Shown here piece after piece: positions 4,230-26,038 of a stretch of DNA of 64,000 bases. Numbering within the stretch: position 1 is the first letter of the stretch; the number at the start of each line of letters is the position of its first letter. Origin of the DNA: Rhizobium sp. Root708 (GTDB taxonomy: Bacteria > Pseudomonadota > Alphaproteobacteria > Rhizobiales > Rhizobiaceae); NCBI RefSeq assembly GCF_001429725.1, contig NZ_LMHV01000044.1, positions 186,001 through 250,000 of the forward strand, in the 5' to 3' direction. A model generated the notes under the pieces. The model ran no database searches. It saw nothing but the letters and a program-made list of their open reading frames with translations, and was not told the DNA's origin. The position numbers and the translations under genes were made by a program.

Positions 4230-4257
4230 ACCGCGACCCGCGTAAGAGGAAACACCG

Positions 4258-4914: not shown

Positions 4915-4933
4915 GGCTGGAGACCCATTCGTG

Positions 4934-5740: not shown

Positions 5741-5743
5741 GAC

Positions 5744-6181: not shown

Positions 6182-6191
6182 GGAGACGACC

Positions 6192-10887: not shown

Positions 10888-10904
10888 AATCCATATTATG
10901 GATT
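10888..10904. promoter_or_regulatory. Palindromic operator site 1 (AATCCATATTATGGATT)
   Basis: A perfect 17-base inverted repeat with a single central base, 23 bases before the ATG of the C45 hydrolase gene. The 17 bases ATCCATATTATGGATTA (10889-10905) recur exactly at 18435-18451, in the divergent promoter region of the oxidase operon. A TATTAT hexamer lies in the centre and could be a -10 element covered by the regulator. The nearest candidate binder is the IclR-family protein encoded at 16115-16945; that link is inference. Confidence 0.75.
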
Positions 10905-10927: not shown

Positions 10928-11962
10928 ATGAGTTCATCCGCAATCCCGATCCTCCATCTGCGGGGAGATCCATTCACTCGCGGTAAGCAACATGGAGTTG
11001 CATTGTCTTCCGCGATCCACGACGCGAACCGGCGCCAGAGGCAGACCTGCAATGACAGCGACTTGCGACATGCAGCCCAACGAGCCGCGAGCTCCTGGCA
11101 CCAGCTCGAAGCAGGGTTTCCAAAGGTCGCGGCCGAGATCAGGGGCATTGCCGAAGGCAGCGGACTGGCGCCTCTGGATGTCTACCTCCTTTCTGGCTTT
11201 GATTTCTTTGAAGGCGCGCCATCAAGCGGTTGCACGACGGCAGCCTGCACGATTGGCGATGGCGCAATCGTTGCGCAAAACTGGGACGCTCCACCCGGCA
11301 CGGATCGGAATCTCGTCTTGATGATCCACGAGGCGGGAGACGACAGTCTGATGATGGTCACCTCACCTGGAACGCTTGGTTGGGTTGGCATGAACAGGAC
11401 AGGCCTCGCGCTCGTGACAAACGATCTGATGCTCGATGTCCAGGGTCATGGACTACCGACGCTCGCCGTCCGGCGCATCTTGCTCAGTCATGGTCGCGCG
11501 TGCGACGCAATGAATGCGGTCCGCCAGTTAGACCATCGGGCCGGGCGCTGTTATTTGTTGGGCGACGCTCACGGCGATATCGCCGGCGTCGAGATTTCAC
11601 CCATGATCGGGGCGTGGCCACTATCCGGACATTCCATCGTCCACACCAATCATCCGATCGTGCCGGCCACCGCGTTGATGGAAGACATAGAGGCGGTCGC
11701 CCACGTCTATCCGTCCAGCCGAGAACGCCTACGCGCGGCTCGCGCGCACACTGTGGCGTGCGGCGAAGACATGCGCCGGCTTTTGGCCGACACGAACGGT
11801 AGCCCCGATGCCATCTGCAAGACGGCCTCACGTAGAGAGCCGACCCAAACTGCGTTCTCAATCATCTTTGACTGCGCTAAGCGGCAGGCCTCGGTTTGTC
11901 TCGGGCGACCGGATCGTAGCCGCTATCACGCCTTCACCCTCGACGTCGCGACCGCGGTCTAG
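10928..11962 (+). CDS. C45-family N-acyltransferase/amidohydrolase (acyl-CoA:6-APA acyltransferase-like)
   Basis: A 344-residue protein of the peptidase C45 / isopenicillin N acyltransferase family, N-terminal-nucleophile enzymes that process themselves and cleave or form an amide with a new N-terminal Cys. The expected nucleophile is Cys102 in SSGCTTAA, followed by the family pattern GDGAIVAQNWD and GWVGMNRTGLALVTND. No signal peptide is seen, so it is probably cytoplasmic. It is preceded by palindromic site 1, and its stop overlaps the stop of the convergent reductase gene (shared CTAG). Within the island it could remove an acyl or amino-acyl group from the imported compound. The substrate is not known. 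Confidence 0.82.
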   Translation: MSSSAIPILHLRGDPFTRGKQHGVALSSAIHDANRRQRQTCNDSDLRHAAQRAASSWHQLEAGFPKVAAEIRGIAEGSGLAPLDVYLLSGFDFFEGAPSSGCTTAACTIGDGAIVAQNWDAPPGTDRNLVLMIHEAGDDSLMMVTSPGTLGWVGMNRTGLALVTNDLMLDVQGHGLPTLAVRRILLSHGRACDAMNAVRQLDHRAGRCYLLGDAHGDIAGVEISPMIGAWPLSGHSIVHTNHPIVPATALMEDIEAVAHVYPSSRERLRAARAHTVACGEDMRRLLADTNGSPDAICKTASRREPTQTAFSIIFDCAKRQASVCLGRPDRSRYHAFTLDVATAV

Positions 11963-13122
11963 GCGATAGACAGATCGCTGCCGCCGGATCGTCGGGCGTA
12001 GTCGGCGAAACGCGCCGCGAGTTCATCAGCACGCTCTTCGCACTCATCCGGGCGATAGGGACGGCAGTCATAGCCGAGCAGGTCGCGCATGATCTCTGCA
12101 GATGCGTCGGTCGTGCGGACCGTACCGTCGTCATCGACGCTCTCGATCCCATCATAACGCTGACAGCGCCGGTTGATGTCGATCGCCTCTTCCAACGTCA
12201 GCCCCGCGGGGAGATCAACGAGGAACCCAGCCGGTGATACCCGAACCGGATAACCGCCAACCAGCCCGAGCGGACCCGGACCATGGACGACGTGACCCGC
12301 ACGGGCTGCCACTGCCCGCAACATCGCGGTCGCCGATGATGCGGTGACCGACTGCCCGGCCCGGCCCTTCACGCGCCGGTAGCGACCGGCGACGTGCGAG
12401 AAGAGGACTGCGTGATCGATCTCGTCGGGAGGAACTTCCATTCCATCGGCATAGATCGTCAGATGGTAGGGCGCGCCATCGGTGCCACCGGTGCTCGGCA
12501 TCCGGTAGCTCAGGTAATGATGAGCGAAGAAACGAACATCGATTGCCGCCGGTTCGCGTTTGAGCATGTGCGCCGCGGCCAGACGGATTCCAGGGACCGC
12601 ATTGGCAATATTGCCGATACCGACGGCCGGCGCCAACCCCTCCGCCGCGAGCGACGCATTGACGACATCCGGATAGGAAGCATTGACGACAACCGCGTGG
12701 CTGTCGGCAAGACGCACCGCCTTCATCAATCTGCGAACGAGAACCTGGTGCATGGGCGTCCAGACACCGCCACGTGCCATGTCAATGCGCTTGTAGGCTT
12801 CTGGCGGAAGCTTGGTAATGACCCACCAACTGTGTAGCGTGCTGGCGTTGAAGATGATGTCCGGCTTAAGCTTGTCGAGCCGCTCAGCTGTCTGCTCGAT
12901 GTCCATCAGGTCGATGCGCGTAACGTCGACCCGCGGTTCCTGGCCGAGATTCATGGCCGTATAGCGCGCGAGGTTTACCCGCAGGAGCGCCGCGTCCGGA
13001 TCGCGTGCCCCAAGGGTCAATGCATAGTCTTTTCCGCTTTGCAGGAGGAAGTCGAGGACATCGCCCCCGAGCACTCCGCTGCCGATAATGAGAATTCGAG
13101 GGGCCTTCCGATCCTTTTTCAT
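11959..13122 (-). CDS. Saccharopine-dehydrogenase-like NAD(P)-binding oxidoreductase
   Basis: A 387-residue protein with an N-terminal Rossmann motif (ILIIGSGVLGGDVLDFLL) and a layout like saccharopine dehydrogenase and related opine-type reductases. ATG 13122 was chosen for the AAGGA box seven bases upstream. Enzymes of this superfamily make or break secondary amines between an amino acid and a keto compound, which fits the opine-oxidase-like genes further along the island. The substrate is unknown. It is transcribed divergently from the racemase operon across about 120 bases. Confidence 0.75.
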   Translation of the reverse strand: MKKDRKAPRILIIGSGVLGGDVLDFLLQSGKDYALTLGARDPDAALLRVNLARYTAMNLGQEPRVDVTRIDLMDIEQTAERLDKLKPDIIFNASTLHSWWVITKLPPEAYKRIDMARGGVWTPMHQVLVRRLMKAVRLADSHAVVVNASYPDVVNASLAAEGLAPAVGIGNIANAVPGIRLAAAHMLKREPAAIDVRFFAHHYLSYRMPSTGGTDGAPYHLTIYADGMEVPPDEIDHAVLFSHVAGRYRRVKGRAGQSVTASSATAMLRAVAARAGHVVHGPGPLGLVGGYPVRVSPAGFLVDLPAGLTLEEAIDINRRCQRYDGIESVDDDGTVRTTDASAEIMRDLLGYDCRPYRPDECEERADELAARFADYARRSGGSDLSIA

Positions 13123-13245
13123 GGCATGATCCTTCACTACTTTAGCGAGCTTTTGTTTAATTCATACATTTCCCGGTAGCAATGTGACTTAGTTTATCTT
13201 AGATTGCAACAATCGAACTTAGCTATCCTCTTGGTTGCGTCTCCG

Positions 13246-14349
13246 ATGTCCTCTTTCTATCCAACCGCGCCCCAACTCCAGATCGATCTGTCTGCGATCG
13301 CCGCGAATTACACCTATATGAAATCGCTGGCCGCGCACGGCGCCGAAATTGCTGCGGTGGTCAAGAGCGATGCCTATGGTCTCGGCCTCGATCTCGTCGT
13401 CCCGGCGCTCCTGGACGCCGGCTGCAATCGCGTCTTCGTTAAAGACCTGCGCGAGGGGCTTCACGTGCGCAAGCGCCTCTCGAGCTCCGCAATGATCCAT
13501 GTGCTGTCAGGTTTTGAGCCCCGCGATATCGATGACTACATCGGCTCGCGACTCGATCCCGTCTGTCGCACCCTTTCGCAAGCGCTGGCATCCCTCGACC
13601 GGCTTCCGCAGTTCCTTCTCGCTGTCGACACCGGCTTTTCCAGGTTTGGGTTGCCTCTTTCGGAGCTTGCGCTCCTCGTTCACCGGACGTCCCGCCGGCC
13701 AGATCTGCTGGTCAGTCATCTGGCCTGCGCCGACGCGCGCGCAAACGAGACAAACGCGCTTCAACGCGATCGCTTCGCCGCTGCCTGCGAAATCCTGCAA
13801 CCGTGCAAACGGAGCCTCGCCGCCTCAGCAGCGATCTGGCTCGGTCCTCGTTTTCACTTTGACGTTGTGCGCGTCGGATCCGCACTCTTCGGCCTGAACA
13901 ACGCGGCAATTGAACCATGTCCGCTTCAGCCTGTCGTACGGCTGACGGCGCGAATTGTCGATGTTAGAACGGTTCACCGGGGCGAGAGCGTCGGATATGC
14001 AGCGAGCTTCCGGGCAAGCCGGCAAATGTGCATCGGCATCATCGCACTCGGTTACGTACAGGGTCTCCCATGGTCGGCTGGCAACGCCATCTCCGCGGCG
14101 ATTGGCTCCCACATCGCTCCGATTGTCGGCCGCATTGCGATGGAATACACAGCGATCGACCTCACCGAATTACCCCGATCGATCTGTGTGCCGGGAACGG
14201 CTGTCGAACTGCTCGGACCGCGCATGTCCGTCGACGCAATGGCAACGGCAACCGGCACGATCCCACAGGAGCTGCTGGTTCGTCTCGGATCGGGCTGCCG
14301 GCGGCAGTACGCTTGCTCTCCGAGCGCAACCGCAGGGGAACCGCATTGA
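13246..14349 (+). CDS. Alanine racemase family, PLP-dependent
   Basis: A 367-residue fold-type III PLP enzyme. The PLP lysine is Lys40 in AAVVKSDAYGLG, the catalytic tyrosine lies in VGYAASF, and the active-site segment PIVGRIAMEYTAIDLT matches alanine racemases. The start is uncertain: ATG 13246 fits the usual N-terminus, while TTG 13204 would add 14 residues, and neither has a strong ribosome site. The stop overlaps the next gene (TGATG). In this context it may interconvert D- and L-forms of an amino acid released in the pathway rather than serve cell-wall synthesis. Confidence 0.85.
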   Translation: MSSFYPTAPQLQIDLSAIAANYTYMKSLAAHGAEIAAVVKSDAYGLGLDLVVPALLDAGCNRVFVKDLREGLHVRKRLSSSAMIHVLSGFEPRDIDDYIGSRLDPVCRTLSQALASLDRLPQFLLAVDTGFSRFGLPLSELALLVHRTSRRPDLLVSHLACADARANETNALQRDRFAAACEILQPCKRSLAASAAIWLGPRFHFDVVRVGSALFGLNNAAIEPCPLQPVVRLTARIVDVRTVHRGESVGYAASFRASRQMCIGIIALGYVQGLPWSAGNAISAAIGSHIAPIVGRIAMEYTAIDLTELPRSICVPGTAVELLGPRMSVDAMATATGTIPQELLVRLGSGCRRQYACSPSATAGEPH

Positions 14350-15242
14350 TGGACGACCGGCGAGCAGGAGCCCTCTGCGTTCTTTCGGCAGCCTTGCTGT
14401 GGAGCACGGCCGGACTGTTCATGGGCCTGCTCGCCGAACTTGATGCATGGACCATTCTCTTCTGGCGAAGCCTGTTTGGGGCATTCATGGCGACTGCTCT
14501 ATATTTTCCGGGCGCCGGCCGGCGCCGTGGTGCAGCGGTGTCGATGAAATGGTGGTGGATCGCGGTCGCGGCTTCCGCGGTCGGGATGGTTGCCTTTATC
14601 CCGGCGCTGCGACTGACCTCGGTCGCCAATGTCGCGATGATCCACGCTGCGTTGCCGGTCTTTGCTGCCTTGGCCTCCATTCTCATTCTCGGAGAGACAC
14701 CGTCGCGCGCAACGGTGCTGTTGTCCTGCGTGGCGCTAGCTGGTGCGCTTGTGATCCTTAGCGGCTCGCCCGCTGGGAGCTCCGACCGGGCCGGCGACCT
14801 CCTGGCATTGCTCATGACCATGTCGATCGCACTGATGACGGTTGCGCTTCGATTGCGCGGCGGGTCCAACCTTTCAATGGTGGCGGCCTCCAACGCCATC
14901 GCGGCAGGCGTCGCCTACTGCCTGTCGCCCGACATTGCCGTCGACGTTGCTCAGACCGGCCTCCTAGCAGCCTTTGGTCTGATCCAGATGGTGTTTGGCC
15001 TCCTTCTCTATGGCAAGGGGGCCCAGTTGCTTGCAAGCGCGGAAACCGCGTTGTTGTCGCTTGCCGAGGTTCCGCTTTCTCCTCTCTGGGTCTGGCTGGC
15101 GTTCAGCCAGCAGCCGACACCTCCCGGGATGGTCGGTGGCCTGATCATCCTTGCCGCAGCCGCCGCCCATGGCGTTCTGCACCTTCGCCGTAGTTCGGCT
15201 GAATCATTGCGGCTGCGTCAATCGTCGGAGGGACCATCATGA
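14349..15242 (+). CDS. EamA/DMT-family transporter
   Basis: A 297-residue, very hydrophobic protein with about ten predicted membrane helices in two EamA repeats (about residues 7-140 and 150-285). Members usually export or import amino acids and other small metabolites. It is coupled to the racemase upstream (1-base overlap) and to the HAD gene downstream (ATGA overlap), so all three are likely one operon. Likely role: export of a product or excess amino acid; the substrate cannot be read from the sequence. Confidence 0.85.
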   Translation: MDDRRAGALCVLSAALLWSTAGLFMGLLAELDAWTILFWRSLFGAFMATALYFPGAGRRRGAAVSMKWWWIAVAASAVGMVAFIPALRLTSVANVAMIHAALPVFAALASILILGETPSRATVLLSCVALAGALVILSGSPAGSSDRAGDLLALLMTMSIALMTVALRLRGGSNLSMVAASNAIAAGVAYCLSPDIAVDVAQTGLLAAFGLIQMVFGLLLYGKGAQLLASAETALLSLAEVPLSPLWVWLAFSQQPTPPGMVGGLIILAAAAAHGVLHLRRSSAESLRLRQSSEGPS

Positions 15243-16093
15243 AACATGGACCGGCCTTCCTGCACGGTATTGTCGAAGTCGCGGATCGGTATGACGGATT
15301 GATCCTTGATCTCTTCGGAACCGTCCATGATGGCATCGATCTCCTTCCAGGGGTTCTTGACGCACTCCGGGCAATCAGACAACGACGCATTCGCGTTTGC
15401 CTTCTTTCGAACGCTCCGCGCCGATCTCGTGATGTCGCAAACCGGATCTCGGAGATGGGGCTCGAACCGGAATTCTATTGCGGCCTGGTAACGTCAGGCG
15501 AGATGGCGTTCGATGCCCTGTCGACCGGTGGCGGAGATTTTGGCGATCGCTATTTTCACATCGGACCGAGCGAACTTTCGGGGCTTCTCGACGGAAGCGG
15601 GCGCACAGCGGTAACGGAGCCCGACGAGGCGGATTTTCTTCTCTGCACAGGGATTGGCGATGCGACATCTCTCACGCGAGATCTGTTCTCTCGGGCGATC
15701 GACCGGAAGCTCACCATGGTCTGCGCCAATCCCGATCGCAGCGTCATCATCGGCCAGGAACTTATCAGCTGTGCAGGCGCGGTTGCGCAATACTATGAAG
15801 CCATGGGAGGAACCATCCTCCATTTCGGGAAACCTTATCGCGCAGCGTATGATCAAGCGCTCTCGCGGCTCGACCTGACCGGCGATCGGGTTTTGGCGGT
15901 CGGCGATGCCCTCGACACAGATATTCGAGGCGCCCGCGCGGTCGGCATCGACGCAGCGCTTGTGCTGACTGGCATTCACCGCGATGAACTTGTTGATCGG
16001 CGAACGGGGAGGGCTTCCCTGGCAAAGATCAAACGTATGCGGGAGCGAGAGCACCAACCGATATTCGTCATGCACGCATTGGCGTGGAGTTGA
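15239..16093 (+). CDS. HAD-superfamily class IIA hydrolase (TIGR01459-like)
   Basis: A 284-residue HAD protein. Motif I is DLFGTVHDG, motif II LLSNAPR, the lysine region GKPYRAAYD and motif IV AVGDALDTDIRGA. Motif I lacks the usual second Asp (DxD reads DLF), as in the TIGR01459 subgroup, which typically shows DVWG. So a standard phosphatase activity is not certain. The ATG overlaps the transporter stop. It could dephosphorylate a sugar- or glycerol-type intermediate in the island; this is inference. Confidence 0.8.
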   Translation: MKHGPAFLHGIVEVADRYDGLILDLFGTVHDGIDLLPGVLDALRAIRQRRIRVCLLSNAPRRSRDVANRISEMGLEPEFYCGLVTSGEMAFDALSTGGGDFGDRYFHIGPSELSGLLDGSGRTAVTEPDEADFLLCTGIGDATSLTRDLFSRAIDRKLTMVCANPDRSVIIGQELISCAGAVAQYYEAMGGTILHFGKPYRAAYDQALSRLDLTGDRVLAVGDALDTDIRGARAVGIDAALVLTGIHRDELVDRRTGRASLAKIKRMREREHQPIFVMHALAWS

Positions 16094-16114: not shown

Positions 16115-16945
16115 CTATCGACGCGCCTGAACCATGGCCGCCGCCGCAGATCCAAGGTGCGCGTCCTCAAGCGGATTGAGGCTCGCCTCCAAGGTACGAA
16201 CCTCCGCCTTGATCAAGTCGACGAGCGTAGGCAGGCGTTCTTCGGAGAGCCTCGCACTCGTCAGGTTGATGGCGATCGAAGCGACAGCGTCGCGGCCGGG
16301 AGGCAGGATCGGAACCGCGATCGCCGATATGCCGGCGACAAGCTCGCCATGGTCGACCGCATAGCCATTCTGCCTGATCCCATCGAGTGCACTCTTGACC
16401 TTCCCCTCCGTCAGCGAGCCGTAATGCCTATAGAGCGGTGCGTTCGTGGAAGTGATGACCGTGGCTTCGGCGGACGGCAGAAATGCCAGGATAGCCTGGC
16501 TTGCAGGACCGACCCCCATCGGGATCTGCCCGCCAATGTGGCCCGTCAGGCTATCGATCATATAGGATCCCTGTTGGCGGTCGACGCAGACGGTATTGAA
16601 ACCGGCACGCGCCATCAGGAAGACGGAATCGCCCGTCGCAGCCGACAGGCGCATCAGCGCCGGACGTGCCAGTACCCGCAGCCCCGTTCCATCCGCTGCG
16701 GTCGCCCCCATTGCAAAAAGAGCCAAGCCCAGCCGATACCGCCTGGTCTCTCGCTCGCGATCGACGAGACCGTGGCGCTCGAGCGCGGTGATGATCCGGT
16801 GCGCCGTCGGCTGCGTCAGGCCAAGCGTTTCCCTGATCATCACCATCGTCGCGCCGCCGTGTCCTGCCTCGCCAAGGAATCTCAGGACGGAGACCGCTCT
16901 ATCGAGAAGCTGCGTTCCGGTTCCCCCGGTCTCATCGCTTGCCAT
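16115..16945 (-). CDS. IclR-family transcriptional regulator
   Basis: A 276-residue regulator with an N-terminal winged helix (LLDRAVSVLRFLGEAGHGG, then LGLTQPTAHRIITALERHG) and a C-terminal effector-binding IclR domain (about 90-255). ATG 16945 gives the usual spacing before the helix-turn-helix; in-frame upstream starts at 16963 and 16975 are possible. It is encoded on the minus strand next to the MmgE/PrpD gene and inside the catabolic island, so it is the best candidate to bind the two identical palindromes at 10888 and 18435. Confidence 0.88.
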   Translation of the reverse strand: MASDETGGTGTQLLDRAVSVLRFLGEAGHGGATMVMIRETLGLTQPTAHRIITALERHGLVDRERETRRYRLGLALFAMGATAADGTGLRVLARPALMRLSAATGDSVFLMARAGFNTVCVDRQQGSYMIDSLTGHIGGQIPMGVGPASQAILAFLPSAEATVITSTNAPLYRHYGSLTEGKVKSALDGIRQNGYAVDHGELVAGISAIAVPILPPGRDAVASIAINLTSARLSEERLPTLVDLIKAEVRTLEASLNPLEDAHLGSAAAAMVQARR

Positions 16946-17008
16946 TTTAAATCCATTCCTCATCCGGTTCGGCAATTCCTAGTGCCAGATCGTGGCTTTG
17001 TAAAATGC

Positions 17009-18340
17009 CTAGAAGGGCTCGCAAAGGGCGTGGAGAAGAGTGGCCGGCGTCGCACCGGTGCCAAAATGCATGATCGCATCATGGATCGATTGCGTTCGGT
17101 GTGGCGGCAATGGCAGTCGTTCAGAGAGCCGCCCGAACTTTGCCGCGCGCTCCTCGGCACTCAAGGGATTGTTCGGCTCACCTTTCGGGAAGGCGATTTC
17201 CTGAGAGAACTGTTGCCCGTTCGCGGTTATGATGACGGTGGCAGGCGTCGCGGCTGGAAACGCGCCGGCATATCGCGGATCCGCTTTCAGTTTGACCCGC
17301 CCCGCAAGCGCGACAACATCTTGGTCGGAAAGATGGTGATCCTCGAGCGGCAACAATGCCGGCTCGCCGTGGCACAGGGCGACGGCAACACAGAATGGAA
17401 TGCTGTACTGCGCGGCCTCGTTGGAAGCCGGCGATGCCTGGTTCGGCAAGGTCAGGGCGCGCTCGAATGTTTCGACCACGATTTCATCGATTGCCTGCGC
17501 TACCAGGCCATGGCGCTCCCGCAGCTCCAATACCGCGTCGATCGCCGCATGCGCCCATCGGCAGCAGCTGTAGCGTTTGAAGTAGGCCTCCCCGATACGC
17601 CAACTGTTACCCAAGCCGTCAAGAAGCCGCGCCCTGTCGAAGGTAGATGGATCGTCGAGGAGGTCGAGCGGACCCGTGTGCCCGGCCACCGCCAGAAAGG
17701 CGGCCTGAACACCGTTTGCCGCCGCCCATGGGATCCCTTCCTTCACAGAGTGGCCGAGCCGTGTCCATCCGGTCGCAAATTGGCTGGTCGCGGTCTGTCC
17801 GGCGATTGCCATGGCGTGGGCGATGACCGAAGCCGGGTGCCCGAGTAGATAGCCCGTCGCGGCAGCCGTCCCGTATCCGCACCACAGCCCGGAATCCGTC
17901 GTGCGAAGAGCGTTGATGTCACGCGATGCGGCAACCCGCACTGCGATCTCGTAGCCAAGCGCGATTGCGGTCAACAGCCTCGCTGCGGAGATCGAAGCAA
18001 GAGAGGAAAAGGCGAGCACCGCAGGGACGATGGCTGCTGCGGGATGCCCGGCAGCACCGCGATGGCCATCGTCGAGGTCAAGGCTTGCAGCATAGGTAGC
18101 GTTGACGAAGGCTGCGCCGGGCGGGGTGAGCTGGCTTGCCGAGAACCACACCTTCGATTGGCCGTGCCCCCAGATCGAGCGGGCAGCGTCGAATGAGGCC
18201 CGACCCGCAGGAGTGGCCGCGCCACTGGCTGCAGCACCGATCGTATCTTGAAGCGTCCTGCGGACCGCCTCGTGCAGTGGTGTGTCAACGGTCGCGATTG
18301 ACCGGCAGAAGGCAGCCAGTTCGGAAATGGCAGATGACAT
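17009..18340 (-). CDS. MmgE/PrpD family protein
   Basis: A 443-residue member of the MmgE/PrpD superfamily, which includes 2-methylcitrate dehydratase, cis-aconitate decarboxylase and iminodisuccinate epimerase. The segment DLDDGHRGAAGHPAAAIVPA holds the conserved Asp/His residues of the N-terminal helical domain. ATG 18340 was chosen because GGGGGAAA precedes it. It is transcribed away from the oxidase operon, with palindromic site 2 between them. Because a superfamily member epimerises an amino-linked dicarboxylate (iminodisuccinate), a role on an imino or opine-like substrate is plausible but unproven. Confidence 0.85.
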   Translation of the reverse strand: MSSAISELAAFCRSIATVDTPLHEAVRRTLQDTIGAAASGAATPAGRASFDAARSIWGHGQSKVWFSASQLTPPGAAFVNATYAASLDLDDGHRGAAGHPAAAIVPAVLAFSSLASISAARLLTAIALGYEIAVRVAASRDINALRTTDSGLWCGYGTAAATGYLLGHPASVIAHAMAIAGQTATSQFATGWTRLGHSVKEGIPWAAANGVQAAFLAVAGHTGPLDLLDDPSTFDRARLLDGLGNSWRIGEAYFKRYSCCRWAHAAIDAVLELRERHGLVAQAIDEIVVETFERALTLPNQASPASNEAAQYSIPFCVAVALCHGEPALLPLEDHHLSDQDVVALAGRVKLKADPRYAGAFPAATPATVIITANGQQFSQEIAFPKGEPNNPLSAEERAAKFGRLSERLPLPPHRTQSIHDAIMHFGTGATPATLLHALCEPF

Positions 18341-18434
18341 GAGCTGGTTTCCCCCAGATGCTACCTCCGGTGGCTTCAATGTTTCGAACAGCCGAGGCGA
18401 GAGGTAGATTTTTTGAATTTGATTCCCACTAAAC

Positions 18435-18451
18435 ATCCATATTATGGATTA
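18435..18451. promoter_or_regulatory. Palindromic operator site 2, identical to site 1
   Basis: ATCCATATTATGGATTA, an exact 17-base copy of the site at 10889-10905, lies in the 145-base divergent region between the MmgE/PrpD gene and the oxidase operon. A TATTAT hexamer in the centre with TTTGAT 16 bases upstream (18418-18423) could form a weak promoter for the plus-strand operon, so a bound regulator would block it. The first in-frame ATG of the plus-strand frame falls inside the palindrome and is not the start. Confidence 0.75.
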
Positions 18452-18485: not shown

Positions 18486-18800
18486 ATGACCACGATAAAT
18501 ACTACACTTAAGGGCGTTAAGAGGCTTGAAACGCCCGAAACTCTTGAACTCTCCATGCAGGTCGATGGCCTTCGCGTGGCTGCCCGCCGCGGTGAGACGA
18601 TCCTTTTGGCGGTGAACGCTGCCCTCGGCCATGTGCGCAACTTTGAGTTTTGCAAAGAACGAAGGGCTGGCTTCTGCTTTATGGGCGCTTGCCAGGATTG
18701 CTGGATGTGGACTGCTGGCGGTGAACGCATCCGTGCATGCACGAGCCTTGTTGAGCCGGGCATGACGTTGTCCACCTCCGCACCGGGACCGAGAGCATGA
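18486..18800 (+). CDS. (2Fe-2S)-binding small subunit of an opine-oxidase/HcnA-like dehydrogenase
   Basis: A 104-residue plant-type ferredoxin-like subunit. Cysteines in CxxxxxxxFCFMGACQDC and a final RACTSLVEPG form the [2Fe-2S] binding pattern seen in HcnA and in the small subunit of opine and hydroxyproline dehydrogenases. ATG 18486 was chosen for GGGAGGAA upstream. It is the first gene of a nine-gene operon and overlaps the next gene (ATGA). It carries electrons between the two flavin subunits. Confidence 0.85.
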   Translation: MTTINTTLKGVKRLETPETLELSMQVDGLRVAARRGETILLAVNAALGHVRNFEFCKERRAGFCFMGACQDCWMWTAGGERIRACTSLVEPGMTLSTSAPGPRA

Positions 18801-20182
18801 GCCGCCCCGACCTAATCGTCATTGTTGGCGCGGGGCCGGCAGGCGTCAGCGCCGCCAGCATCCTGGTGGAAGCCGGCCACCGCCCGGTGCTCATCGACGA
18901 AGGCATGTCGCAGGGCGGCCAGGTCTTTCGCCGCCCTCCTGACACCCTTCAAAGGACCGATAGGCAGCTATACGGCTTCGACGCCGCGCGGGCGCGCTCC
19001 ATGCGCGACAGCTTCGCCCGCATCCAGCCATCACTGACCTATCTTCCGGAGACGCTGATCTGGAACGTGGAGCCCGGCATGCTTCATCTTTCCGGAACAG
19101 CCGGGATTACCCGGCAACCCTGGCACCGACTGATCGTTGCGCCGGGCGCGATGGATCGGATCGTGCCCGTGAAGGGATGGACGGCCCCTGGCGTGTTCAC
19201 CCTGGGTGGCGCGCAGATTGCCTTGAAGGCCCAAGCATCCCTGATCGGCCACGAGACCGCTTTCCTGGGGAGCGGTCCGCTCTTGTACCTGGTCGCTTAT
19301 CAGTACGCCCGGGCCGGAGGAAGGGTCGCAGCCGTGCTGGAAACCGGCGCTCCGTTTCACCGACTGCCGCCTATTGCAGGCCTTGCCGCCGGCGGCCGGA
19401 TACTGGCGAAGGGCCTCTACTACATCGCCTGGCTGAAAGCCCGCGGTGTTCCCCTCCATGCGGGTGTGGAGCCCCTGGAGATCATGCGGGCCGAAAGCGG
19501 CAGGGTCTCCGGCCTGCGCTATCGCGTTGGCAAGCGCGAAGCCTCGCTTGCCTGTGACGCCGTTGGCATGGGCCAGGGCCTCAAATCAGAAACCCAGCTG
19601 GCCGACCTTCTTGGTGTCGACTTTCATTTCAGCGAGCAGCACCGCCAGTGGCTTCCAACTGTGGATCAAGACGGCCGGAGTTCTATCGACGGCGTCTATC
19701 TTGCCGGAGACGGGCTCGCAATCCGTGGAAGCGAAGTTGCGGAAATGACCGGGGAACTCGCGGCACTGGCGCTCCTTGCAGATTGCGGAAAGCCAGACAC
19801 GGCACGCTCGGCAAAATTGCGACGTCGCATCGCGCGCATGGATCGGTTTCGACGCGCGCTGGACAAACTGTTTCCGTTTCCACGTCGAATGCCATCCGAC
19901 CTGTCCGACGACACGCTCATTTGTCGATGTGAGGGCCTGACCGCGCGTTCCGTACGCGAGGCCGTGGCCGTGTCGGGCGAAACCGATATCAACCGCATCA
20001 AGGCCTTCAGCCGCCTTGGAATGGGGCGTTGCCAGGGACGCGTCTGCGCGCCGGCAGCCGCCGAACTCGTCGCGGCGCAGGCCGCTGTCGACGTTCGCGC
20101 CGTTGGACGGATGCGCGGTCAGGCACCGGTGAAACCCATACCGCTTTGCATGCTGGCTGGAGGCGTCGATGACAGTCTATGA
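18797..20182 (+). CDS. FAD/NAD-binding subunit, opine oxidase subunit A (OoxA/NoxA/HcnB)-like
   Basis: A 461-residue pyridine-nucleotide-disulfide-type flavoprotein. The first dinucleotide motif is VIVGAGPAGVSAA (about residue 5-17) and the second AFLGSGPLLYLVAYQYA (about 155-171). A C-terminal BFD-like [2Fe-2S] domain carries CRCEG and GRCQGRVC. This domain order matches the A subunit of octopine/nopaline oxidases and HcnB. It overlaps the small subunit (4 bases) and the B subunit (14 bases). The substrate may differ from known opines. Confidence 0.85.
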   Translation: MSRPDLIVIVGAGPAGVSAASILVEAGHRPVLIDEGMSQGGQVFRRPPDTLQRTDRQLYGFDAARARSMRDSFARIQPSLTYLPETLIWNVEPGMLHLSGTAGITRQPWHRLIVAPGAMDRIVPVKGWTAPGVFTLGGAQIALKAQASLIGHETAFLGSGPLLYLVAYQYARAGGRVAAVLETGAPFHRLPPIAGLAAGGRILAKGLYYIAWLKARGVPLHAGVEPLEIMRAESGRVSGLRYRVGKREASLACDAVGMGQGLKSETQLADLLGVDFHFSEQHRQWLPTVDQDGRSSIDGVYLAGDGLAIRGSEVAEMTGELAALALLADCGKPDTARSAKLRRRIARMDRFRRALDKLFPFPRRMPSDLSDDTLICRCEGLTARSVREAVAVSGETDINRIKAFSRLGMGRCQGRVCAPAAAELVAAQAAVDVRAVGRMRGQAPVKPIPLCMLAGGVDDSL

Positions 20183-21323
20183 TGTCGCCATCATTGGCGG
20201 CGGCCTTGCCGGCTGTTCGGCAGCGCTTCATGCTCGTCAGATGGGTGCCTCCGTCGCGCTCTTCGAGCGCGGACGATGCGGCGCGCAGGCAAGCGGGGTC
20301 AATTATGGAGGCGTCCGCCAGCAGGGTCGTCACGTTGCCGAACTGCCGCTCGCGCGACGCAGCCGCTCGATCTGGGCAAGGCTCGCCGATCTCGTCGGTG
20401 ACGATTGCGAGTTTGCGGTCACCGGCCACCTGAAGCTGGCACGCAACGACGGCGACATGTGGGAACTCGTTGCCCACCAAGCGCTCGCGAAGAGCATCGA
20501 CCTATCGCTTGAAATCCTTGACCGGTCCGATTTGCGGCGACGCTATCCATATCTCGGGGATCGGTTTTCAGGCGGCTCGCTCTGCGCCGAGGATGGCCAG
20601 GCCAACCCGAGACTTGTCGCGCCGGCATTCGCGCGCACCGCGCGGTCGATGGGCGCCGTCGTCCGCGAGAACTGCGCAATCGAACGCGCGGTAGTTTCAG
20701 ACATTGGTTTCGATCTCTTCGTGGTCGGAGAACTGGTCCCGTTCCGGGCGAGGCGGCTGATCAACACCGCCGGCGCATGGGGAGCGCGCGTCGCGGCATG
20801 GTTCGGCGACGTCGTTCGCGAAGACGTGATGGCACCCAACATGTGCGTCACGGAACCGATCCCGCCGCTGATAGGTCCCAATCTCGGCATCTGCGGCGGC
20901 GGGATCTATATCAGGCAGACCAGGGACCATGGGAGCGTGATCTTCGGATCGGGGCTCGGCATTGCCGACCGCGACGCCCTGCGTACCCGGCCGCTTGCGG
21001 ATGTCACAATGGAGTCAGCTAGAGCGGCGATCGAGATGGTTCCCGCTCTGGCGAACGTCCTTTTGGTCCGCAGCTGGACCGGCATCGAGGGACGCATGCC
21101 TGATGGGCTGCCTGTCGTCGGTGCTAGTCCTGGTCTGTCCAACCTCTTTCACGCTTTCGGCTTCTCCGGGCATGGGTTCCAGCTTGGCCCGGCCGTTGGC
21201 GCCGTTCTCGCGGAACTTAGCCTCAGAGGTGAAACCGAGACGCCGATCAACGGCCTCTCGATGACGCGCTTTGACCCGCCGACCACCCATCCGGCAGCGG
21301 CTGACGCTGCCGGCCAGACCTGA
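20169..21323 (+). CDS. FAD-dependent amine dehydrogenase, opine oxidase subunit B (OoxB/HcnC)-like
   Basis: A 384-residue DAO-family flavoprotein (glycine oxidase/D-amino acid dehydrogenase fold). The FAD motif is VAIIGGGLAGCSAALHA at the N-terminus, and GIEGRMPDGLPVVG with FGFSGHGFQLGP near the C-terminus are typical of this family. It is the catalytic subunit that would oxidise the C-N bond of an amino-linked substrate to an imine, which hydrolyses to an amine and a carbonyl compound. With the two preceding genes it forms a complete three-subunit membrane-associated dehydrogenase. Direct hydrogen-cyanide synthesis is unlikely given the ABC importer and kinase downstream. Confidence 0.85.
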   Translation: MTVYDVAIIGGGLAGCSAALHARQMGASVALFERGRCGAQASGVNYGGVRQQGRHVAELPLARRSRSIWARLADLVGDDCEFAVTGHLKLARNDGDMWELVAHQALAKSIDLSLEILDRSDLRRRYPYLGDRFSGGSLCAEDGQANPRLVAPAFARTARSMGAVVRENCAIERAVVSDIGFDLFVVGELVPFRARRLINTAGAWGARVAAWFGDVVREDVMAPNMCVTEPIPPLIGPNLGICGGGIYIRQTRDHGSVIFGSGLGIADRDALRTRPLADVTMESARAAIEMVPALANVLLVRSWTGIEGRMPDGLPVVGASPGLSNLFHAFGFSGHGFQLGPAVGAVLAELSLRGETETPINGLSMTRFDPPTTHPAAADAAGQT

Positions 21324-21355
21324 TCGACTTCACAACAACAAAGGGAACAACGATC

Positions 21356-22231
21356 ATGAAGACCACGACACTGACTGGGATGATGGCCATCACAATCGCG
21401 CTGCTTGCCGGGCCCTTATCCGCAGCAGACAACGCCGCCTACAAGCTAGTCGAACCGGGAACGCTATCGGTCGCCATTACCGGCGATATGCCAGGCCTCG
21501 TCGCGCGCGATGGAAAGCTTGTCGGTTACGACGGAGAGATCCTTCAGCTTGCAGCGGAGCATCTCGGATTGGCAATCAAGCCTGTTCCAATGGAATGGTC
21601 GGGCGCCATCGCGGCCGTTCAGACGGGCCGCGTCGACATTATCGGCGGCAACGTCGCCTGGACCGAACAGCGAGCCGCTACGCTCTCGCTGACCGACCCG
21701 AGCGGCTATTTCCAGAACGGCATCACGTCGCTGACGGCAACCGGATGGCATAGCCTTGCAAATCTCGAAGACATGAAGGTTGGCTCCATGACAGGGTTTT
21801 CCTTTCTGCCCGAGCTGAGGCGGATTAAGGGGCTTGAACTGTCACTCTATGACAGCTCGGATGCTGCCTTGCGCGACCTCGTTGCCGGACGAATCCAGGC
21901 GCTGGTCGGCGACCCGCCGGTCATCGACTATGCGATCTCGAAGAACCCGGATTGGGGACTCGCGAACTTGCCCTTCACCGACAACAATCCCCACTTCCCG
22001 CTTTTGACAGGGATCGGCCGCCAGTACGTCTTCGGTCTATCCAAGGATAACAAGGCACTTTCGGACGCCATCAGCGGAGAAATTCGCAAACTGTGGGAGA
22101 GCTGCGAGGTCAAGGCAATCGGCAAGAAATACGGCAATGTCAGCGAGGCGAACTACAAGCCGTCGCCGCAAAACTTCCGTACAGGCGTCGACCGCCCCGA
22201 CGAGTGGGCACCACCCGTTTGCGCTCGATAA
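21356..22231 (+). CDS. ABC transporter periplasmic substrate-binding protein, polar amino acid type
   Basis: A 291-residue family 3 solute-binding protein with a signal peptide ending near GPLSAAD. The mature part has the typical opening LVEPGTLSVAITGDMPG and the segment DIIGGNVAWTEQRAATLSLTDPS. It binds the compound in the periplasm and delivers it to the two permeases encoded downstream. It starts 32 bases after the oxidase subunit B gene, in the same operon. Confidence 0.9.
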   Translation: MKTTTLTGMMAITIALLAGPLSAADNAAYKLVEPGTLSVAITGDMPGLVARDGKLVGYDGEILQLAAEHLGLAIKPVPMEWSGAIAAVQTGRVDIIGGNVAWTEQRAATLSLTDPSGYFQNGITSLTATGWHSLANLEDMKVGSMTGFSFLPELRRIKGLELSLYDSSDAALRDLVAGRIQALVGDPPVIDYAISKNPDWGLANLPFTDNNPHFPLLTGIGRQYVFGLSKDNKALSDAISGEIRKLWESCEVKAIGKKYGNVSEANYKPSPQNFRTGVDRPDEWAPPVCAR

Positions 22232-22285
22232 CGACTACATCGGCGACCGGCTCGCCCGGTCGCATACCGTTCCCTGGAGGCTCCC

Positions 22286-23065
22286 ATGCCCGACGCCGAC
22301 ATTCTCCTGACCGTCGACAATCTCAACAAGTCCTTCGGCCCTATTTCCGTACTCAAAGATGTTTCGTTTTCTCTGCGGCGGGGCGAACGCATCGCATTGA
22401 TCGGCCCGAGCGGATCGGGCAAGTCGACCTGCCTTCGGGCAATCAATTTCCTGGAGCCGCCGACCAGTGGCGACATCAGGATAGACGGCAAGCTCATCGG
22501 CCGTCATGCCAACGGCCGTCGCATGACCGATGCCGAACTCGCGCCGCAACGCGCTGAAATCGGCATGGTTTTTCAGCATTTTCATCTTTGGCCCCATCTT
22601 TCCGTGGAGGCGAATGTCGCGCTGCAACCCCGCAAGGTGCGCGGTTTCGCGGCTGCCCGGGCCACGGCACTGGCCGCCGACCTGCTCGCCAAGGTCCACC
22701 TTTCTCACAAGGCAGGCGAGATGCCGTCGCGCCTTTCGGGCGGCCAACAACAACGGGTAGCGATTGCCCGCGCTCTCGCGCAGCAGCCGAAGCTCCTGCT
22801 CTTCGACGAACCAACCTCGGCCCTTGATCCGGAGTTGGTCGGAGAGGTTTTGACGGTCATCAAGGAGCTCGCCGGCGAAGGGCGTTCAATGGTGCTCGTC
22901 ACGCATGAGATCGCCTTTGCCCGAGAAGTCGCCGACCGCATCATCTTCATGGACGGCGGTCGCATCGTCGAGGAAGGCCCAGCGCGTCACGTCCTCGATC
23001 ACCCGCGGGCGCCGCGCCTAAGACAATTCCTCTCCAGCCTGTCGAATGAGGGGGGCGACTCATGA
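22286..23065 (+). CDS. ABC transporter ATP-binding protein, amino acid type
   Basis: A 259-residue ATPase with Walker A GPSGSGKST, the signature LSGGQQQRVAIARAL and Walker B LLLFDEPTSALDP, in the GlnQ/HisP layout. GGAGG precedes the ATG. It overlaps the first permease by 4 bases. Confidence 0.93.
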   Translation: MPDADILLTVDNLNKSFGPISVLKDVSFSLRRGERIALIGPSGSGKSTCLRAINFLEPPTSGDIRIDGKLIGRHANGRRMTDAELAPQRAEIGMVFQHFHLWPHLSVEANVALQPRKVRGFAAARATALAADLLAKVHLSHKAGEMPSRLSGGQQQRVAIARALAQQPKLLLFDEPTSALDPELVGEVLTVIKELAGEGRSMVLVTHEIAFAREVADRIIFMDGGRIVEEGPARHVLDHPRAPRLRQFLSSLSNEGGDS

Positions 23066-23709
23066 GCGAGGATCTGTTGGGCAGAATAGCCGATGCGCTC
23101 CTGCACGGATCGGTCGTCACGATAGAGGTAAGCCTGGGTGCCTTGGCGATTGCGATGCTGATCGGACTTGTGCTGGCAACCACCGAACATCTTTCCGACA
23201 ATAGAGCGGCAGCATTTCTCATCAGGGCCTATGTTGAAGCCCTCAGGAACGTCCCGAGCCTGACCTTCCTCTTCCTGTTGTATTTCGGACTGGCGTCGGC
23301 AGGCTTGCGGATGTCGTCGATGGTAGCCGCCATCCTCGGGCTCGGCATGATTGGCGGTGCGGTTGTCGTCGACATCCTTCGCGCCGGCTTCCAGTCGGTG
23401 CCGACGGGCCAGAACGAAGCGGCTGCCGCCATCGGTCTCAGGCCCCTTCCTGCGTTTCGCCTGGTCGTCCTTCCGCAGGGACTTCGCCTCGCTCTGCCAT
23501 CCCTCGGCAATTATGCGGTTGGCCTGGTGAAAGACACCTCGCTCGTTGCTGCTATCGCGGCCCCCGAGGTGATGTTCAACGCGCGCCAGATCGTCAACGA
23601 GACCTTCGCCACCGCCACGATCTACGGAGCAGCTGCCCTTCTCTATCTCCTGCTCACCTTCGTTGTCGGACAGGCGTTCGTTCTGGCTGAACGCCGACTG
23701 GAGTATTGA
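23062..23709 (+). CDS. ABC transporter permease, amino acid type (first)
   Basis: A 215-residue permease of the HisM/GlnP type with about five membrane helices. The coupling loop is NEAAAAIGLRPLPAFRLVVLPQGLR, the EAA motif contacting the ATPase. The ATGA overlap with the ATPase gene and the single base before the second permease show a tight operon. Confidence 0.9.
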   Translation: MSEDLLGRIADALLHGSVVTIEVSLGALAIAMLIGLVLATTEHLSDNRAAAFLIRAYVEALRNVPSLTFLFLLYFGLASAGLRMSSMVAAILGLGMIGGAVVVDILRAGFQSVPTGQNEAAAAIGLRPLPAFRLVVLPQGLRLALPSLGNYAVGLVKDTSLVAAIAAPEVMFNARQIVNETFATATIYGAAALLYLLLTFVVGQAFVLAERRLEY

Positions 23710-23710
23710 C

Positions 23711-24427
23711 ATGACCTTCATCGAAACTGTCATCGCCAACCTTTCCGACTGGGGGCCCCGGCTTGCCGCAGGCCTCGTCATGAGTCTCGCCGTGACATCC
23801 GCGGGCTTTACCTTGGCCTTCCTTCTCGGGCTTTCGCTCGAATATCTCAGAACCCGTTCGTCCTTTGCAATCAGGGCGGCAGCGACAACCTATGTGGTCA
23901 TCGCACGTGGCGTTCCAATCCTTGTGATCCTTTACCTGATCTATTTCGGGCTTCCGGGCAGTGGCATCGTGCTGTCCGCGTTTGCAGCCGGGAGCATAGG
24001 TCTGGGCGTTGTATACGGCGCCTATTTGTCCGAGGTCTTTCGTGCCGGGCTAGGGGCCATTCCCCCCGGTCAAAGAGAAGCAGCCCTGGCGGCGGGCCTG
24101 ACACCTGCCCAGGCATTCCGTCTCGTGCTGCTGCCGCAGGCCATCCGCCACATGCTCGCTCCCTTGCTGGTCAATCTCGTCTCGCTTCTGAAGGACAGTT
24201 CGATCTGCGCGCTGATTGCCGTTCCAGAGCTGACGCTAACGTCGCGCGCGATCATGTCCGAGAGCTTCCTGCCGCTGCATGTCTTTGCCCTGACCGCCGT
24301 GCTCTACTTCGCATTGGCATGGCCGGCTTCGCTCACCGTCAGGATGATTGAGAAACACCTTGCGCACGGTAGTGGCGCATCGCGTCAGCGCAGCACCGCG
24401 AAGAAATTAACGGCACAGCCCATTTGA
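23711..24427 (+). CDS. ABC transporter permease, amino acid type (second)
   Basis: A 238-residue permease, paralogous in layout to the preceding one, with the EAA loop REAALAAGLTPAQAFRLVLL and about five membrane helices. ATG 23711 lies one base after the first permease's stop; an in-frame start further upstream at 23663 would overlap the first permease heavily and is not preferred. The two permeases form a heterodimeric channel. Confidence 0.9.
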   Translation: MTFIETVIANLSDWGPRLAAGLVMSLAVTSAGFTLAFLLGLSLEYLRTRSSFAIRAAATTYVVIARGVPILVILYLIYFGLPGSGIVLSAFAAGSIGLGVVYGAYLSEVFRAGLGAIPPGQREAALAAGLTPAQAFRLVLLPQAIRHMLAPLLVNLVSLLKDSSICALIAVPELTLTSRAIMSESFLPLHVFALTAVLYFALAWPASLTVRMIEKHLAHGSGASRQRSTAKKLTAQPI

Positions 24428-24446
24428 GCGCGAAAAGGAGGATATC

Positions 24447-25439
24447 TTGAAGAAACTGATGAACAGCCCGTCAGGCTATGTAGACGAAAGCCTTTCCGGA
24501 CTGGTGCTTGCCTACCCGGACCTGATCCGTGCCGGAAATACGGGTCGCACGATCCTCAGGCGCAATGGCGTCAGGCAGGGCAAGGTGGCAATCGTCACAG
24601 GAGGAGGATCGGGGCACCTTCCGCTCTTCTGCGGCTATCTCGGGGAGGGCCTGCTCGATGCTTGCGCCGTCGGCAATGTCTTCGAAGGCCCCGCCCTCCA
24701 GTCCTGCATCGATGCCGTAGACGCGGCCGACAGCGGTGCCGGTGTGCTGCTTCTTTTTGGAAACTATGGCGGTGACCGAATGAATTTCGAAATGGCATCA
24801 AAAATGTCGCGGGCCGATGTCCGCATGGTGCTTGGAACCGACGACATCGCAAGTGCCGACCGCCTCGAGCGCCAGAAGCGGCGTGGCGTGGCGGGCCTCG
24901 TTCTTGCCTTCAAGACAGCTGGAGCCGCTGCGGAAGCAGGCCTTCCTCTGGACGAGGTCGCGCGGATTGCACAAAAAACTGTCGACCAAACAGCCTCGAT
25001 CGGCATCGCCTGGGGCGGCTGCAGGCTGCCGTCGGAAGATGTGCCGATTGTCGAGATGCAAGACAGCGATGTTGAGATGGGGATCGGCATTCATGGAGAG
25101 CCCGGAATCTGGCGAAAGCCGATAACGTCCGCCAATGCGCTGGTCGACGAGATGATCGAACGCATCCTCGCTGATCGCGGCGAGAACGTCGGCTCCAATC
25201 GCGTCATCCTGATGCTGAACAACCTTGGCGGCACGCCGGTCGATGAACTCTTCATAGCATTCGACCGCGCCCACCGGGCGCTTTCCGAAAAGGGGTTTGC
25301 GATTGCTCGATCCTTCGTTGGCACCTTCGCCACATCGATGGAGATGGCCGGAATTTCTATCAGCCTCAGCTTTATCGACGATGAACTCGATGCATTCTTC
25401 CAAGCGCCTGCGCAATCACCGTTCTGGAGCGTTCAATGA
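24447..25439 (+). CDS. dhaK: Dihydroxyacetone kinase subunit DhaK
   Basis: A 330-residue DhaK protein. The opening KKLMNSPSGYVDESLSGLVL is typical, and the substrate-binding histidine is His216 in GIGIHGEPG; family members bind dihydroxyacetone or another short ketose there as a hemiaminal. The start codon is TTG at 24447, supported by AGGAGG at 24436-24441 and by the conserved N-terminus. It is followed by dhaL with an ATGA overlap. No dhaM (PTS donor) gene is present, so phosphoryl transfer from ATP bound to DhaL is more likely. The substrate could also be a tetrulose. Confidence 0.88.
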   Translation: MKKLMNSPSGYVDESLSGLVLAYPDLIRAGNTGRTILRRNGVRQGKVAIVTGGGSGHLPLFCGYLGEGLLDACAVGNVFEGPALQSCIDAVDAADSGAGVLLLFGNYGGDRMNFEMASKMSRADVRMVLGTDDIASADRLERQKRRGVAGLVLAFKTAGAAAEAGLPLDEVARIAQKTVDQTASIGIAWGGCRLPSEDVPIVEMQDSDVEMGIGIHGEPGIWRKPITSANALVDEMIERILADRGENVGSNRVILMLNNLGGTPVDELFIAFDRAHRALSEKGFAIARSFVGTFATSMEMAGISISLSFIDDELDAFFQAPAQSPFWSVQ

Positions 25440-26038
25440 CCTGCTTCACCTCAACGGACATGCTTGCCGCGGCGAAGCGCGCCGCTCTTACGGCCAAAAC
25501 GATGGAAGCGACCCTGAATGCCGCTGACAGCCGCCTGGGGGACGGTGATACGGGTACGATGTTGGCGCGGTTATTGACTGCCATCGAACAAGCGGAGCCT
25601 GTCCAGGACGACATCGGCGCCACTTTCAAGGTGATGGCCATGAAAGCGGCCCAGAGCACCGGCTCTAGTTTGGGAACGCTTATCAGCGCATCATTGCTGT
25701 CGGCGGGCTCGCGATTTTCCAGCAGTCCTGCGCTTTCGGTCGCGGACATCGGAACGATCGTGAAGGTCGCCCGGGATGAAATGCTGTCGCTCGGACGCTC
25801 GCAACTCGGCGACAAGACGATCGTGGATGGTCTGGACGCCTTGGCCTGCGCGCTCGAGAACGGGTCCAACCCCTGCAAGGCAGTGGACGAAGCCCTCAGT
25901 CGCTTCAGGGGGAAGCCCTGCAAGGTTGGCCGTGCACGCATGTGGCCCGAGCAAAGCATGGATCTCGATGATCCCGGAATGCTTGCGTTGGCCGGGATCG
26001 TCAAAGCCATCTACATTCCATCGTCGCAACGGGGATAG
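25436..26038 (+). CDS. dhaL: Dihydroxyacetone kinase subunit DhaL
   Basis: A 200-residue helical-barrel protein with the Mg-ADP binding motif LGDGDTGTML near residue 33 and MKAAQSTGSSLGTL, as in DhaL. It would pair with DhaK to phosphorylate a short ketose to a glycolytic intermediate. It is the last gene of the nine-gene operon that starts at 18486. No clear terminator follows in the 47 bases before the convergent small gene. Confidence 0.88.
   Translation: MTCFTSTDMLAAAKRAALTAKTMEATLNAADSRLGDGDTGTMLARLLTAIEQAEPVQDDIGATFKVMAMKAAQSTGSSLGTLISASLLSAGSRFSSSPALSVADIGTIVKVARDEMLSLGRSQLGDKTIVDGLDALACALENGSNPCKAVDEALSRFRGKPCKVGRARMWPEQSMDLDDPGMLALAGIVKAIYIPSSQRG

Follow-up and report, generated by a model that had tools for sequence, protein, structure and literature searches.

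The stretch of DNA analysed here, called the window throughout, comprises 64,000 nucleotides of Rhizobium sp. Root708 (assembly GCF_001429725.1, contig NZ_LMHV01000044.1, positions 186,001 to 250,000). Its positions 18486-26038 hold a nine-gene operon in which an amine oxidase and an ATP-binding cassette (ABC) importer are followed by a two-subunit kinase of the dihydroxyacetone (DHA) kinase (Dak) family. The genes of the operon are as follows (positions within the window).

18486-18800, plus strand: OxA, [2Fe-2S] subunit (PF13510)
18797-20182, plus strand: OxB, FAD/NAD-type subunit with BFD domain (PF07992, PF04324, PF17806)
20169-21323, plus strand: OxC, DAO-type catalytic amine oxidase subunit (PF01266, 3.4e-65)
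21356-22231, plus strand: family-3 substrate-binding protein (SBP; PF00497)
22286-23065, plus strand: ABC ATPase (PF00005)
23062-23709, plus strand: ABC permease 1 (PF00528)
23711-24427, plus strand: ABC permease 2, ATG at 23711 (PF00528)
24447-25439, plus strand: DhaK, ketose-binding kinase subunit, TTG start with AGGAGG ahead (PF02733, Dak1, 3.3e-106)
25436-26038, plus strand: DhaL, nucleotide-binding kinase subunit (PF02734, Dak2, 3.2e-23)

All nine genes are co-directional, and adjacent frames overlap or are separated by about 55 bp at most. A preliminary description of this DNA had DhaK and DhaL closing an amine-oxidase/importer operon, and this arrangement was borne out for all nine genes. 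The Dak1 and Dak2 scores of the two kinase subunits are well above the Pfam cut-offs. A scan for promoter and terminator consensus sequences gave no signal above chance. Beyond the operon as first described, the region includes a divergent MmgE/PrpD-IclR gene pair, a C45 hydrolase gene with the same operator, and an upstream block of SDH-like, Alr, EamA, and HAD genes.

The available text of PMC6429413 supports a covalent histidine mechanism and a likeness between ATP-dependent and phosphotransferase system (PTS)-dependent kinases. Alignment confirmed that His216 of the window DhaK is the histidine of GIGIHGEPG, as had been proposed, and His57 and Asp110 align to E. coli His56 and Asp109. The window DhaL retains three Asp residues (31, 36, and 38). 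With Dak1 and Dak2 domains, the covalent His, and the Mg-Asp residues, the pair belongs to the Dak family; the genome has three Dak1 genes, window DhaK included. The lack of DhaM noted in the preliminary description extends to the whole genome (given as 99.98% complete), where TIGR02364 had 0 matches and the E. coli, L. lactis, and Haloferax controls were positive. Because this donor subunit is absent, the kinase is not a PTS-dependent DhaKLM system. In one related cluster (T136), DhaK and DhaL form a single 532-residue frame, reflecting a genuine gene fusion or else an error in the sequence; in T1473 and T1470 they are two genes. The absence of DhaM and the fused T136 frame point to ATP as the phosphoryl donor of DhaKL.

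For comparison with relatives, a cluster was defined as an MmgE/PrpD protein matching the window protein at 45% or above together with an amine oxidase. Nineteen clusters were opened, a sample and not a census: the window, L034, L035, L036, L037, L041, R. sullae, T1473, T1470, T136, BG4, G128, B11, R. tumorigenes 932 and 1078, S. fredii 83666, pMLa (M. japonicum), MesoLj131b2, and G186. Operons with the same gene order came from the genome scan (L034-L037) and from plasmids. The kinase is inherited with the other genes: a Dak-family kinase lies inside the operon in 15 of the 19 clusters. S. fredii is a sixteenth kinase-bearing case, with a DhaK-DhaL pair behind another importer, about 7 kb from MmgE and about 11 kb from OxA. 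Instead of OxABC, three of the 15 (pMLa, MesoLj131b2, and G186) carry a FAD oxidase of another kind. A PotD/PotF-like importer serves L041, S. fredii, pMLa, MesoLj131b2, and G186, and the other clusters have one of the family-3 amino-acid type. Variant operons with DhaK carry M24 genes and, in three clusters, amidase genes as well. RidA-type genes occur in two variant clusters and would suit an imine product. In BG4 and G128 the kinase slot holds a fused Dak kinase that has the canonical DHA-kinase pocket residues.

More distant matches have other surroundings. Three of the plasmid OxC matches at 42-51% (rows H10-H40) were opened, and OxC homologues at 47-51% in Burkholderia, Azospirillum, and Ensifer plasmid loci (L076, L078, L079) were accompanied in the stretch by no Dak gene and not by this MmgE. 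Sixteen family genomes had an MmgE match at 1e-60; three are in the count (the window genome, G128, and G186), and of the 13 outside it, six were examined. Queries of these six, with MmgE at 42-43% (L147-L152, of which L147 was read gene by gene), found none of the Ox/SBP/Dak set, except a 24% OxC-like match in L149. MmgE matches at 44-45% on four Sinorhizobium plasmids were left unopened outside the count. MmgE genes on the Ti plasmids pTiQ15/94 and pTiBo542 also have different surroundings. In pTiBo542 (L139, 11328-12661) MmgE/PrpD is annotated in two pieces, as on four further listed Agrobacterium plasmids; in pTiQ15/94 it is one gene. In T1473 and T1470 (L071, L160) the annotated SBP is short, its leader being a piece of its own, and the SDH-like gene is in two pieces, which hints at decay.

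The DhaK tree had 58 rows, 14 of them cluster-linked (T1470 and MesoLj131b2 were left out). The window group comprises eight rows (support 100/99). L041 sits on a long branch and its position is unsure, pMLa and G186 join another group (88/86), S. fredii is placed separately, and the fused BG4/G128 pair (100/100) falls outside a 100/99 fork. A single clade of cluster kinases was rejected (p-AU 7.7e-53, a value that owes much to the very distant fused pair), and parsimony gave five changes. With S. fredii removed and L041 merged into the window group, three origins remain. Since the cluster kinases are not one clade, the kinase slot has been filled repeatedly. Among the 14 cluster kinases, His56 and His218 are kept in all and Asp109 in 13 (L041 has Glu), while Glu57 and Lys104 are present in two each and Ser80 in three. 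The full set of E. coli DhaK pocket contacts Glu57, Ser80, and Lys104 is present in just 2 of 14, the fused kinases of BG4 and G128.

The oxidase and the binding protein were compared with known proteins. OxABC has the three-part layout of opine oxidases (Oox/Nox), with DAO, FAD/BFD, and [2Fe-2S] subunits. Identity to the nopaline oxidase subunits is 25-35%, which does not indicate a close relation. The best PDB matches of OxC are the archaeal "sarcosine oxidase" 1y56_B (1.1e-32) and glycine oxidases. The SBP belongs with the family-3 binders: the Arg and Asp of amino-acid binders are both aligned in its best PDB match, the ancestral reconstruction 4zv1. Against NocT the Arg aligns and the Asp is opposite Ser. 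In such binders the Arg serves the carboxylate and the Asp the amine.

Sites and genes upstream of the operon are as follows.

10889-10903, no strand: palindrome ATCCATATTATGGAT, putative IclR operator ahead of the C45 gene, one of two genome sites
10928-11962, plus strand: C45 autoproteolytic acyltransferase/hydrolase, amide-bond enzyme, same putative regulon (NF040521, 186.7 bits, cut-off 85; PF03417)
11959-13137, minus strand: SDH-like Rossmann dehydrogenase, possible maker of the compound (weak Epimerase and Sacchrp_dh_NADP matches; no Pfam above cut-off)
13177-13209, no strand: inverted repeat TAGCAAT-N19-ATTGCAA between SDH-like and Alr, presumably for another regulator, conserved in relatives
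13246-14349, plus strand: Alr-type pyridoxal phosphate racemase, open frame from 13204 (PF01168/PF00842; TIGR00492 above cut-off; PDB 3kw3, 8.9e-54)
14349-15242, plus strand: EamA/DMT transporter, probable exporter (PF00892)
15239-16093, plus strand: HAD phosphatase TIGR01459 (153.4 bits, cut-off 103.75; PDB 6nq4, 1.9e-38)
16115-16975, minus strand: IclR regulator (PF01614, PF09339)
17009-18340, minus strand: MmgE/PrpD protein, start set from orthologues, open frame reaching 18436 (PF03972, PF19305)
18435-18449, no strand: second copy of palindrome ATCCATATTATGGAT, divergent MmgE/OxA promoter, one of two genome sites

With one mismatch allowed, ATCCATATTATGGAT occurs at exactly two sites in the 6.29-Mb genome (10889 and 18435), and the reversed-pattern control gave 0. 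This 15-bp palindrome ties the operon to the upstream C45 amide hydrolase. The C45 protein matches PDB 2x1d (table name ACYL-COENZYME) at 7e-29. Counts in relatives, some of them closely related strains, gave a site with two mismatches or fewer at the MmgE-divergent promoter in 13 of the 18 clusters scanned (all but T1470); the site has three mismatches in R. sullae, pMLa, and MesoLj131b2, and there is none in L037 and G186. Ahead of C45, such a site was found at 10 of 14 loci, the misses being L121, L123, L137, and L140. The IclR protein is the candidate to bind ATCCATATTATGGAT, judged by position. By eye, both promoters (18340-18450 and 10830-10903) have a TTTCGNACA-like element roughly 50 bp away from the palindrome. 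Upstream of C45, the window has a VirB/Trb-type conjugation cluster (45-8569; Pfam CagE_TrbE_VirB, TrbL/VirB6, VirB8, CagX, and TrbI) and a LuxR-type regulator; conjugation genes of VirB/Trb type are also near the clusters of B11 and R. tumorigenes 932.

The best PDB match of the MmgE/PrpD protein is iminodisuccinate (IDS) epimerase 2hp0 (5.9e-20), for which the available text of PMC7347537 gives H99 and Y145 as catalytic bases. The GHP histidine is kept in 12 of 12 aligned rows and was equated with H99 by residue counting. The residue aligned to Y145, in a loop where the alignment is loose, is not Tyr, leaving one of the two proposed bases; membership in the IDS epimerases was rejected on this position. 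The protein may act as an epimerase, a dehydratase, or a lyase. According to the available text of PMC6733357, pTiEU6 has an mmgE gene at the end of its succinamopine region together with hydrolases that possibly open lactam rings, and its authors link mmgE to propionate. On pMLa, a second MmgE/PrpD gene lies with another M24 peptidase and a PotD-type importer beside the SDH-like/Alr/EamA/HAD block (L137, 19952-29097).

Taken together, these genes may form a catabolic regulon, probably controlled by IclR, for an amino acid with a secondary-amine link to a short polyol-type carbon; for the full pathway that follows, our confidence is about even. The ABC importer would bring the compound in. If the compound is closed or acylated, the hydrolase (C45 here; M24 and sometimes amidase in variant clusters) would then open an amide-type bond, and MmgE/PrpD may rearrange the compound, for example by epimerising an acidic carbon. 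OxABC would next oxidise the C-N bond to an imine, and hydrolysis would split this into an amino acid and a short hydroxy-carbonyl, for which a triose is the likeliest identity. DhaK would bind this carbonyl covalently on His216, DhaL would phosphorylate it from ATP, and the resulting phosphate could join central metabolism without further dedicated enzymes. The sequence itself shows the genes, their common operator, the catalytic residues, the co-inheritance, and the repeated recruitment of kinases; the match of IclR to this operator, the chemistry and its sequence of steps, and the triose are inferred. A triose is favoured because no sugar-phosphate isomerase is listed in the annotated cluster stretches read (the gene tables of the plasmids have gaps), and a triose has the least need of such an enzyme. 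Membership of the kinase in the pathway is supported by the comparisons, and production of a Dak-type substrate by the pathway would explain it best. Delivery of such a substrate is well backed, because the kinase was recruited repeatedly and a canonical-pocket kinase occupies the same slot in two relatives.

Several observations weigh against this pathway. At the positions of E. coli DhaK Glu57, Ser80, and Lys104, the window DhaK has Leu, Gly, and Gly (E57L, S80G, and K104G); it does not have the DHA-specific pocket, and DHA specificity is therefore not readable from His216 alone. Some of the nearest non-cluster DhaK relatives lie near carboxylate-type transporters and GlcD-like oxidases. The altered pocket and these surroundings are real evidence for another carbonyl such as hydroxypyruvate. 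Hydrolases rather than the oxidase could release the kinase substrate. No kinase was found in B11 or R. tumorigenes 932 and 1078 (3 of 19) within the stretches read, and no operator site was found ahead of the S. fredii kinase pair. The earlier proposal that the oxidase releases a ketose for DhaKL thus stands in part. Its placement of the kinase in the pathway agrees with the 15 of 19 operons, the repeated recruitment, and the BG4/G128 pocket, and the oxidase layout and SBP residues also speak for the proposal. DHA or a tetrulose as the carbonyl, the oxidase rather than the C45/M24/amidase hydrolases as its source, and an opine, let alone a new class of opine, as the substrate are unproven.

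The carbonyl might instead be hydroxypyruvate or a similar hydroxy-oxoacid, released from serine N-linked to another acid, and DhaKL would then make 3-phosphohydroxypyruvate for serine metabolism. We consider this unlikely. The three pocket substitutions fit it, as do the non-cluster relatives L042 and L045 with a TRAP transporter, GlcD-like oxidases, and aldehyde dehydrogenase (family search), TTT-type transporter genes seen by eye in L039 and L053, and the action of the best solved MmgE relative on an iminodicarboxylate. It is harder to reconcile with the canonical-pocket fused kinase in the same slot of BG4 and G128, and we know of no hydroxypyruvate kinase of the Dak family. An improbable variant has the kinase substrate released by a hydrolase (C45, M24, or amidase) or by MmgE/PrpD, with the oxidase handling the amino part. 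C45 is preceded by the same operator sequence, and M24 and, in three clusters, amidase genes accompany DhaK in variant operons; yet the hydrolase families swap between clusters while the kinase is constant, and a ketose is not a normal product of an amide hydrolase.

Still less probable is a four-carbon ketose of the erythrulose type as the product. Dak-family erythrulose kinases exist, and a transaldolase gene adjoins the S. fredii cluster, but this gene is found in one cluster only, and no tetrulose-phosphate isomerase or epimerase is listed in the annotated stretches read. That DhaKL is an unrelated passenger of the plasmid region is very improbable. The kinase is missing in 3 of 19 clusters, as a passenger might be, but its frames overlap at the operon end, it is present in 15 of 19 clusters, and it was recruited repeatedly; at the density of this genome (three Dak genes per 6.29 Mb), a given 20-kb stretch holds one with a chance of about 1%.

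The dehydrogenase, racemase, exporter, and phosphatase genes between C45 and IclR form a partner block to the catabolic genes. Among 72,556 plasmids, there were 20 SDH-like matches, 11 of them at 60% identity or above, and all 11 have an MmgE match of at least 48%. Among the best 25 of 569 MmgE plasmid rows, 48% or more is reached by these 11 alone; the next MmgE is at 45% and the next SDH-like at 31%. All 7 genomes or records examined individually have the SDH-like gene too; it lies about 7 kb away in the L037 genome and about 19 kb away in R. sullae, and in G128 it is on the same contig at a distance of 35-50 kb. Relatives of any strength occur in 17 of 294 sampled family genomes. On all 11 plasmids with the dehydrogenase, the block accompanies the catabolic genes, mostly under a different operator. 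TAGCAAT-N19-ATTGCAA, with at most two mismatches, is present at 9 of 14 loci, and with three mismatches at three more; it is absent from pMLa and S. fredii. The window genome has one perfect site and a one-mismatch site elsewhere (control, one match).

The function of the SDH-like protein was approached by similarity. BLASTP against the pTiC58 opine dehydrogenases (nos, odh) found no match at E 1e-3, which disfavours a classical opine synthase. The PDB search returned only chance antibody matches, and a single-sequence AlphaFold2 model had a mean predicted local distance difference test (pLDDT) score of 39.6. The HAD protein also matches the glycerol 3-phosphate phosphatase 4i9f (1.4e-15). By eye, distant SDH-like members have EamA/MFS-type exporters nearby (L102, L103) or follow an aminotransferase-like protein that carries a fused HAD part (L101). 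LuxR- and LuxI-type genes are near the C45/SDH-like block in L099, L121, L122, L123, L141, and L142 (by similarity; three LuxI were Pfam-checked), suggesting a quorum-sensing link; L118, L120, and L140 have a LuxR match only, at 27-29%.

From its exporter, phosphatase, and separate operator, we guess that the partner block may make the compound. In its fullest form, which we consider improbable, this would be a plasmid-borne make-and-reclaim cycle. Starting from a phosphorylated triose, SDH-like, Alr, HAD, and EamA would assemble a conjugate of triose and amino acid and secrete it. The IclR regulon would reclaim the conjugate by way of C45, MmgE, and OxABC, with a Dak kinase putting the phosphate back. 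The block stands under an operator of its own and, in several relatives, adjoins LuxR/LuxI genes. If true, the cycle would be a private carbon currency or signal of plasmid carriers that parallels Ti-plasmid opines with no plant tumour.

To our knowledge, the products of known opine pathways are keto acids or aldoses, and these pathways do not require a triose kinase of their own. In the open-licence literature, no paper was found that joins opines and DHA kinase with Rhizobium or amino acids, or rhizopines with DHA kinase. A pathway that repeatedly acquired a ketose kinase to follow its amine oxidase would be a sign that the plant or soil environment offers a kind of amine-linked nutrient not yet described, and the dehydrogenase and exporter of the partner block raise the question of whether carriers make the compound themselves.

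Among known systems, nopaline and octopine catabolism of Ti plasmids (noc/nox, occ/oox) likewise combines a three-part FAD/[2Fe-2S] oxidase with an amino-acid-type ABC importer beside conjugation genes. Compared with pTiC58, OxA is 35% identical over 79 aa to its counterpart, OxB 33% to the NoxA-place protein, and OxC 25% to the NoxB-place protein; the nox names, which are absent from the record, are our assignment from gene position. The window SBP is 25% identical to NocT over 213 aa. The genes listed for the pTiC58 stretch include LysR, arginase, and ornithine cyclodeaminase; a Dak kinase, IclR, and MmgE are not among them. In the rhizopine system (mos/moc), making and using genes are paired, and the window plasmid region may pair them similarly. 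A nodule-rhizopine setting is disfavoured by the search for nifH, which found none above cut-off in the genome; the strain is therefore probably not a nodule nitrogen fixer.

IDS epimerase acts on a secondary-amine diacid; the window MmgE resembles it in the GHP histidine and differs at the Y145 position. Succinamopine and leucinopine catabolism (sac/lec; pTiEU6, pTiBo542) shares a Nox-like triad, possible ring-opening hydrolases, and mmgE (available text of PMC6733357), and the MmgE proteins on Ti plasmids are 42-44% identical to the window protein. That system differs in having another importer and a LysR regulator, and the same text names no Dak kinase. E. coli DhaKLM shares DhaK His56, Asp109, and His218 and the DhaL Asp residues, whereas the window genome is without DhaM, and its DhaK has 38% identity and three more pocket positions altered. 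The ATP-dependent fused Dak kinases (Citrobacter DHA kinase and human triokinase) resemble the window kinase in having K and L parts without a PTS protein, and T136 likewise has one fused frame; the window kinase differs in being encoded by two genes, and its use of ATP is predicted.

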